Shown here piece by piece: positions 63,561 through 64,000 of a DNA stretch of 64,000 nucleotides. The stretch spans positions 1,083,770 to 1,147,769 of the forward strand of contig FJOG01000020.1 in assembly GCA_900073065.1 (NCBI GenBank), written 5' to 3'. The notes below the pieces were generated by a model. It was not told the DNA's origin and ran no database searches. It was given only the letters and a program-made list of their open reading frames with translations. The stretch's first letter is position 1; the number at the start of each line of letters is the position of its first letter. The position numbers and the translations under genes were made by a program. This stretch comes from Phialocephala subalpina. Its lineage: Eukaryota > Ascomycota > Leotiomycetes > Helotiales > Mollisiaceae.

Positions 63561-63566
63561 AAAAAA
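63561..63566 (-). terminator. RNA polymerase III terminator (T6)
   Basis: Six T residues on the minus strand lie about 30 nt after the mature tRNA 3' end. They are the first T4+ run downstream of the gene start. Confidence 0.6.
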
Positions 63567-63588
63567 GAAACGAGGCATCATGAACTCG

Positions 63589-63599
63589 GGAATTGAGCC
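63589..63599 (-). promoter_or_regulatory. Downstream B-box-like element
   Basis: GGCTCAATTCC matches the pol III B-box consensus GGTTCRANTCC at 10 of 11 positions. It lies within a perfect 6-bp hairpin (CTCGGG/CCCGAG) with a 7-nt loop that overlaps the 3' end of the tRNA. It could replace the interrupted internal B box. Confidence 0.45.
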
Positions 63600-63604
63600 C
63601 GAGG

Positions 63605-63655
63605 CTGAGAATTTATTAGTTTTGGGCTTCGGATATCAGAGTTGATTGAACATAC
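63605..63655 (-). other. Spliceosomal-type intron B in the tRNA T stem (51 nt)
   Basis: It starts GTATGT, has AAAACTAAT 19 nt before the end, and stops CTCAG. It lies between positions 64 and 65, so the exon between introns A and B is only 9 nt. No T4 run is present. Confidence 0.8.
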
Positions 63656-63664
63656 CGGGGCTCG

Positions 63665-63715
63665 CTACACAGAGAATTAGTTTTCAGTTTTTGAATCTTG
63701 AGAATTATTACTTAC
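63665..63715 (-). other. Spliceosomal-type intron A in the tRNA T loop (51 nt)
   Basis: It starts GTAAGT, has a branch-like AAAACTAAT 20 nt before the end, and stops GTGTAG. It splits the T loop between positions 55 and 56 and thereby splits the B box (GGTT | CGAGCC). It contains no run of four T, so it would not terminate RNA polymerase III. Confidence 0.8.
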
Positions 63716-63733
63716 AACCCGCGACCTTGAGGT

Positions 63734-63745
63734 TATCTTATAGCT
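63734..63745 (-). other. Canonical tRNA intron (12 nt, after position 37)
   Basis: It lies between anticodon-loop positions 37 and 38, the standard site for tRNA splicing endonuclease. It contains AAG, able to pair with the CTT anticodon, as is typical of nuclear tRNA introns. Confidence 0.8.
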
Positions 63746-63782
63746 TAAGAGCCACACGCTCTACCGATTGAGCTACCCGGGC

Positions 63783-64000
63783 TTCAGGTATTTGATGGAT
63801 GCAGGAATTGTTATTTAAACATACACGACCGTGTTGATGTGGGTTGCCGAAGTGCCTTCGGTTGGAGGAGGATGCCGAAGAAATTTTAAAATTTTCGCCG
63901 AAGTGGGCTCCCATTGATCGTGCCCAACCAAGAAATCTATTATGGTTTCATTGGCAGTACTGATTTAACAGATATCACAGGAATTCGTTCTTCCTCAGCG
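63783..64000. other. Upstream flank of the tRNA with CCGAAG cluster
   Basis: Four copies of CCGAAG or its complement lie within 63855-63905, including CGCCGAAGTG. Its reverse complement CACTTCGGCG shares nine bases with the terminal repeat of the MITE at 2434-2683. No partner end or target duplication is visible in the window. Confidence 0.35.

Follow-up and report, generated by a model that had tools for sequence, protein, structure and literature searches.

In the textbook division of labour tRNA introns are removed by an endonuclease and a ligase and mRNA introns by the spliceosome, and canonical eukaryotic tRNA introns lie at position 37/38, where they are cut by the SEN endonuclease. Ectopic introns and permuted tRNA genes occur in archaea and red algae, where a bulge-helix-bulge (BHB) structure defines them and the endonuclease cuts them. 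Among other small RNAs, mRNA-type introns are already known in fungal U6 snRNA genes, and U6 is transcribed by Pol III. The U3 snoRNA of fungi has normal spliceosomal introns, the presence of which varies between close species and between paralogs, and in the sections of that source drawn on here U6 and U3 are described as the sole small structured RNAs known to be often interrupted, with tRNA unnamed (PMC5832005). tRNA splicing is described, in the part of the source cited, as spliceosome-independent (PMC13149111). The published assembly of Phialocephala subalpina spans 69.7 Mb over 205 scaffolds; its annotation has 91 tRNA genes, its mRNA introns average 80 bp, and the sections of its text cited here make no mention of tRNA introns (PMC5148876). 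We found no report of spliceosomal introns in tRNA in CC-licensed PMC literature searched by title and start of abstract, and absence there is not proof.

The present work concerns a 64,000-nucleotide stretch of P. subalpina DNA (the window) and the single genome assembly to which it belongs (68.1 Mb, 119 contigs). The interrupted tRNA genes described below resemble the fungal U6 genes in having a short GT-AG spliceosomal-type intron in a small structured RNA, and a U6 gene of this fungus has one too; they differ in that U6 is a component of the spliceosome and tRNAs are not, and in that many genes are interrupted here, 11 of 27 by two introns, some of which flank an exon of 9–10 nt. They share with U3 that a small structured RNA is interrupted and that paralogs differ in intron presence. 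Canonical introns occur as well, in 20 of the 27 genes, but the introns of 47–81 nt lie elsewhere in the tRNA, have GT-AG ends and lack a complete BHB central helix, which also separates them from ectopic BHB introns, with which they have in common that several introns at non-canonical positions may lie in one tRNA gene. For spliceosomal-type introns in tRNA, interrupted U6 and U3 are the known analogues.

The tRNA-Lys(CTT) gene and its copies

The gene lies on the minus strand of the window and has four exons, the coordinates of which were rechecked against the sequence (Table 1). The initial annotation had placed two 51-nt GT...AG segments at 63715-63665 and 63655-63605, with consensus donors GTAAGT and GTATGT and YAG-type ends, and all of this is exact, the ends being TAG and CAG. 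It had also predicted that splicing out both segments and a 12-nt intron would give a tRNA-Lys(CTT) with a 7-bp acceptor stem and a 5-bp T stem, and ARAGORN returns that product: no tRNA is detected in the raw sequence of the gene, deletion of the two 51-nt segments gives a full cloverleaf with both stems, and further deletion of the 12-nt anticodon-loop intron gives Lys(CTT), with one U29-U41 mismatch in the anticodon stem that is present in all four genomic copies. A branch region about 20 nt from the intron ends had been claimed, which describes the start of the longer AAAACTAAT stretch and not the branch-site A itself, which is 13 nt (intron 1) and 12 nt (intron 2) before the end. Rfam at the gathering threshold has zero matches in the unspliced window, and the four unspliced Lys genes score 21.7–24.9 bits, below the 29-bit cut-off. 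When the entire window was scanned with splicing allowed for, which gave 814 candidate sequences, the Lys gene alone scored 20 or more. Two runs of N, at window:13670-13689 and window:26193-26402, are assembly gaps or masked bases, the first lying inside an ORF that we read as CLASP-like.

Table 1. The tRNA-Lys(CTT) gene and its flanking elements, in positions of the window
Feature	Position	Strand	Basis
TATA-like element TTTAAATAA, 37 nt upstream of the gene	63811..63819	-	
tRNA-Lys(CTT) gene, position 1 to discriminator 73	63596..63782	-	ARAGORN cloverleaf after intron removal; exons the same in 4/4 genomic copies
Exon 1, 37 nt: acceptor 5′ strand, D arm and anticodon arm to position 37	63746..63782	-	
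Presumed A box TAGCTCAATCGG, unbroken	63764..63775	-	sequence reading
Anticodon-loop intron, 12 nt, at 37/38, endonuclease type; register ambiguous by 1 nt	63734..63745	-	ARAGORN Lys(CTT) call requires its removal
Exon 2, 18 nt, 3′ end GCGGGTT (T-loop position 55)	63716..63733	-	100% identity in 4/4 copies
Spliceosomal-type intron 1, 51 nt, GTAAGT...CTAAT...TAG, T loop 55/56; interrupts internal B box	63665..63715	-	
Internal exon CGAGCCCCG, 9 nt, positions 56-64	63656..63664	-	same in 4/4 copies
Spliceosomal-type intron 2, 51 nt, GTATGT...CTAAT...CAG, T stem 64/65	63605..63655	-	
Last exon CCTCGGGCT, positions 65-73	63596..63604	-	same in 4/4 copies
Candidate surrogate B box GGCTCAATTCC, straddling gene 3′ end	63589..63599	-	best B-box-like site in each of 4 Lys genes
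Conserved 3′ trailer CAATTCCCGAGTTCATGAT	63577..63595	-	19/19 positions identical in 4 copies
T-run, Pol III-type terminator	63561..63566	-	

The internal B box is interrupted by intron 1 in all four Lys genes, and because it is split, TFIIIC probably uses the B-box-like site at the gene 3′ end, which is made up of the last four exon bases and the start of the trailer (seven trailer bases). Its matrix score of 9.3 is weak beside those of 59 genomic B boxes (range 4.8–18.9, lower quartile 12.2, median 17.5), and 17 of 127980 window positions score as high or higher. On balance we judge it reasonably probable that GGCTCAATTCC is a relocated B box. The extragenic downstream B box of yeast SNR6 is similar in lying away from the usual internal place, with the difference that the candidate box would here replace the B box of a tRNA gene split by an intron. 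An alternative explanation could be that the trailer forms an RNA hairpin (CTCGGG/CCCGAG) that keeps the acceptor strand open and so lets splicing take place ahead of tRNA folding and of the processing of the ends. The trailer can, on a reading of the sequence, pair with the 3′ acceptor strand, its conservation extends beyond the seven bases that the box would use, and the box scores below the lower quartile of its genomic counterparts; we nevertheless think a hairpin role rather unlikely, given that precisely this place holds an 11-nt match within the genomic B-box score range, and that no other site scores better in any of these genes, the own B box of which is split. The two readings are not mutually exclusive. 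Beyond the trailer identity drops to 0.47 and then to 0.33 per 5-nt bin. In Ala the second intron directly precedes an intact GGTTCGATTCC, and an Asp gene on contig C38 is split at 57/58 and has uninterrupted paralogs.

A 5′-half pattern at up to three mismatches identified four Lys(CTT) genes in the genome (68 Mb), which lie on C39, C42 (the contig of the window), C43 and C51, with 0 matches in the control, and a pattern for a GT-AG intron at 55/56 identified the same four and one further place, against 5 control places. Both long introns are at matching sites in all four genes, and the anticodon-loop intron measures 12, 12, 12 and 9 nt. Pairwise identity among the copies is 100% in exons, compared with 56–74% in intron 1, 59–74% in intron 2 and 53–70% in the 120 nt upstream, which is the pattern of purifying selection on the exons. 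An intact Lys(CTT) gene elsewhere, for which the initial annotation had proposed a search, was sought with a 25-nt pattern for the uninterrupted 3′ half; it has zero matches in the genome at up to three mismatches, limits within which a strongly diverged or unassembled gene would escape.

The same annotation had allowed that the locus might be a pseudogene copy, in which the GT-AG segments would be relics or coincidence. Such a dead copy demands no new biology, and both the failure of ARAGORN and Rfam to see a tRNA in the raw sequence and the U29-U41 mismatch could be taken in its favour, but it is very improbable in view of four of four copies that share both introns and the same architecture, with identical exons beside diverged introns, of an intact copy not being found, and of decoy motifs that fail to yield spliced tRNAs. 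This last comparison covered 129 partly overlapping loci (281 kb), in which the GT-branch-YAG set of 2849 candidates gave 22 spliced tRNA calls at threshold, and five decoy sets (5200, 7845, 7097, 3494 and 2164 candidates) gave 0, 1, 1, 1 and 0, all three decoy calls being at loci with genuine intron-bearing genes. We infer instead that the gene in the window is functional and is one of four for tRNA-Lys(CTT).

Codon use was counted in seven stretches (stop-to-stop ORFs or exons), of which five had more AAG than AAA and two the reverse, with 46 AAG and 1 AAA in the Ssc1-like Hsp70 ORF of the window. There was no Lys(TTT) gene with an unbroken 5′ half in the genome at up to three mismatches of the pattern used, and Lys(TTT) may itself be interrupted by introns. 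No Val gene was clearly recognised among the examined loci, and it is possible that this gene is interrupted too.

Intron-bearing tRNA genes across the genome

A scan of the genome and its relatives for further tRNA genes with GT-AG insertions had also been suggested, and within this genome it was productive. At least 27 curated tRNA genes, in the part of the genome examined, carry 38 spliceosomal-type introns, the set having been obtained by a splicing-aware ARAGORN scan of fetched loci and then a hand check. They comprise Lys(CTT) (four genes), Ala(AGC) (three), Gly(GCC), Phe and Leu(AAG) (two each), and single genes for Leu(CAA), Leu(CAG), Arg(TCT), Arg(CCG), Met, Gln(TTG), Trp, Thr(CGT), Thr(TGT), Thr(AGT), Asp, Ser(GCT) and Glu(TTC), together with a Met-like gene with anticodon AAT, which is probably a pseudogene; some intron-bearing copies with intronless paralogs could be dead genes as well. 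The original claim, that spliceosomal-type introns occur in a tRNA that also has an anticodon-loop intron, is strongly supported by all four Lys(CTT) genes, by the set of 27 and by boundaries that paralogs define.

The 38 introns are 47–81 nt long (median 51 nt) and are inserted, by hand reading, in the acceptor stem, at 9/10, and in the D arm, anticodon stem, variable loop and T arm. Their ends are GT-AG in 37 and GC-AG in one, with A at donor position 3 in 33 and G at position 5 in 37, and their 3′ ends are YAG in 37 and AAG in one. A YTRAY branch motif lies 10–18 nt from the end in 37 of the 38 and 30 nt from it in Gln(TTG), the motif nearest 15 nt having been chosen if there were several; the automated calls had themselves used donor, branch and YAG as criteria. 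The genes with two introns are the four Lys, three Ala and two Gly genes, Arg(CCG), in which the internal exon is 10 nt, and Glu, and the 20 genes with an additional anticodon-loop intron are 16 identified by ARAGORN and the four Lys genes.

After splicing ARAGORN folds all 27 into a cloverleaf, a criterion on which the genes were curated, and for eight of them the identity given here was read by hand and differs from the name given by ARAGORN (the four Lys genes, in which the anticodon intron was left in, one Phe, Leu(CAG), one Leu(AAG) and the Met-like gene). Genes of this kind can escape standard tRNA finders or receive a wrong name from them: in unspliced form nine of the 27 were called by ARAGORN, eight of these with a different anticodon, and the four Lys(CTT) genes were all missed. 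Rfam scored 63 of 2196 candidates, so the catalogue of tRNA genes is incomplete. The set least biased against introns consists of matches to GGGTTCGANYCCC, at 48 places (47 distinct; control 9), of which 31 were read by hand as tRNA genes, 12 of these 31 with spliceosomal-type introns and the remaining 16 places uncounted. Other patterns gave little: the D-arm pattern had 17 places against 21 in the control, with no enrichment, the TGG and AGG T-arm patterns 25 against 16 and 30 against 33, at or slightly over control, and the CGG pattern 15 against 11. Of the new places that the AGG and CGG patterns gave, only three were fetched. A viral contig scan had 0 matches.

Several loci stand outside the 27. 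Omitted from the set were L085 and L105, Leu-like and Ser-like tRNA-like genes with possible GT-AG introns, for which a spliced reading is possible and the anticodon unsettled, as well as L075, L088 and L121. Two Ser-like type II tRNA genes, L019 and L045, were read with the unusual anticodons ACT and ACC and are possibly decayed or recoded copies. Six loci (L121, L094, L123, L114, L097 and L071) have a TATA-like element and a B-box-like T arm, with a T-run in some, and a convincing tRNA fold is absent; in L121 tRNA-like ends flank a long middle. These are candidates for unknown Pol III RNAs or for tRNAs with larger or more introns.

Evidence on the boundaries comes from intronless paralogs in the same genome, which exist for Gly, Leu(AAG), Gln(TTG), Trp, Asp, Ser(GCT), Ala(AGC) and Phe (Met was aligned against a more diverged gene rather than a close paralog). 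Since it is these paralogs that place the insertions, the boundaries are independent of any search for GT-AG, and the joined exons match those of the paralogs, a result likewise independent of the curation. Thirteen alignments define 16 insertions, of which 14 are directly GT-AG, one is GC-AG with donor GCAAGT, and one, the second intron of the Gly gene on C57, is GT-AG after a manual shift of 1 nt, the automatic alignment having been 1 nt off owing to a substitution. The donor consensus is likewise visible in insertions defined in this way. Removal of a 55-nt GT-AG intron from Thr(AGT) (L136) gives exact identity with the intronless L002, and three Asp genes (L068, L078 and L095) are without the T-loop intron. 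In the Gly(GCC) copy L077 (C57:45896 region) the first intron is the GC-AG one, with donor GCAAGT, and lies one nucleotide from the GT-AG intron of its sister L093, an offset for which intron sliding is a possible explanation.

Introns of paralogs at the same site are 50–73% alike, with one Leu(AAG) pair (36%) excluded for having different sites, as would be expected for shared descent with strong divergence. Introners, that is copies of one mobile element, were also considered: introns at different sites have a mean similarity of 52.5% against 49.2% for shuffled sequences and a maximum of 68.9% against 63.3%, barely exceeding the shuffled values, so a recent burst is not visible among these introns. 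Gain by reverse splicing into the T loop is a candidate origin.

Transcription and removal of the introns

A TATA-like element (the class taken down to TTTAAA) precedes 23 of the 27 intron-bearing genes at a median of 36 nt and 34 of 43 intronless genes at 37.5 nt, and a T-run lies within 70 nt in 26 of 27 and 42 of 43, counts of short motifs that have no background control; the 43 intronless genes are unspliced calls at a score of at least 26. These signals are common to both classes of gene, which points to Pol III. It could be argued that the intron-bearing genes have come to be transcribed by Pol II, with splicing as in any other Pol II transcript and tRNA processing only afterwards, as splicing is usually coupled to Pol II and a TATA-like element could suit either polymerase, but we hold this to be highly unlikely, since the TATA-like spacing and the T-run terminators match those of intronless tRNA genes, with the same lack of a background control, and several U6-like genes are preceded by similar TATA-like elements.

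The best-scoring U6 snRNA gene, L106 (C51:503875-503977 and about 80 nt upstream), is interrupted in its 5′ region by a GT-AG intron of 55 nt (GTGAGT...CTAATACTTTCTAG, between GTTGTCCCCTTCGGGGTGACAT and TTGGTCAATTTGAAACGATACAGAG), so that an RNA that helps to catalyse splicing must itself undergo splicing. There are six further U6-like genes (L107-L112), several with Pol III-type TATA-like elements and T-runs, which depart from it in the 5′ stem (some have GCCGATAAAAAGGC there) and at scattered positions and appear to be either U6 variants or pseudogenes.

The sequence features of the tRNA introns are those of U2-type introns, namely boundaries, donor consensus, a YTRAY motif near the 3′ end and the joining of exons, and we infer that the spliceosome removes the tRNA introns of 47–81 nt. 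One mRNA intron could be defined in the window, by a 1037-residue P. subalpina protein that matches a query from the window at 100% identity over 99% of its length and the two exons of which align to the window at 100%; this intron is 47 nt long, with donor GTAAGTA and CTGAT 10 nt from its end. Group I and group II self-splicing introns usually have a ribozyme core of more than 200 nt. They were rejected, as 47–81 nt is too short and Rfam has no window match at the gathering threshold. Hardly tenable is excision of the long introns by the tRNA splicing endonuclease in the manner of the ectopic BHB introns of archaea and some algae, for although the fungus has the enzyme's domain at two loci and an anticodon-loop intron is present besides in 20 of the 27 genes, complete pairing of the BHB central helix (4/4 pairs between intron nt 2-5 and 3′-exon nt 2-5, G-U allowed, by a simple pairing count rather than a full fold) was found in 0 of 38, and GT/GC-AG ends with branch motifs are present even where a paralog rather than a motif sets the boundary.

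Within the Lys gene only the 12-nt intron is at 37/38, the long introns being at 55/56 and 64/65. Two loci with a tRNA_int_endo domain, as Sen2 and Sen34 would lead one to expect, provide the anticodon introns with an enzyme of their own, and the best reading is that most of the intron-bearing tRNAs would be processed by the tRNA endonuclease as well as by the spliceosome.

Taken together, these patterns make very probable an account in which a functional Lys(CTT) gene is transcribed by Pol III, is served by both spliceosome and endonuclease, probably has a relocated box, and exemplifies a genome-wide condition. TFIIIC would bind the conserved B-box-like site at the gene 3′ end instead of the split box, and Pol III would produce a transcript in which the T arm is interrupted by two spliceosomal introns of the ordinary U2 type and the anticodon loop by one of the endonuclease type. 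Both 51-nt introns would be excised by the spliceosome, which would join the 9-nt internal exon by intron definition, the ends of the pre-tRNA would be processed, and tRNA endonuclease and ligase would take out the 12-nt intron. The yeast tRNA endonuclease acts in the cytoplasm; if the enzyme is cytoplasmic here too, the spliceosome would act first, in the nucleus and before export.

Implications for tRNA supply and splicing

Every Lys(CTT) gene that was found, and many other tRNA genes, have mRNA-type introns, and working tRNAs are therefore probably out of the cell's reach unless its mRNA-splicing machine takes part. We consider it likely that an essential part of the tRNA supply is obligately spliceosome-dependent, with Pol III precursors passing through two unrelated splicing systems in succession and one promoter element relocated so that the introns are tolerated. 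Pairs of paralogs with and without an intron are also well suited to studying the gain of spliceosomal introns, a question still open, as their boundaries are not obscured by a coding frame. If the account is true, the spliceosome processes Pol III transcripts broadly and joins internal exons of 9–10 nt in structured RNA, and if these tRNAs are spliced as their sequence says, the textbook division fails genome-wide in an ordinary, culturable fungus. In such a cell mRNA splicing would be coupled to translation, and splicing capacity would directly limit it.
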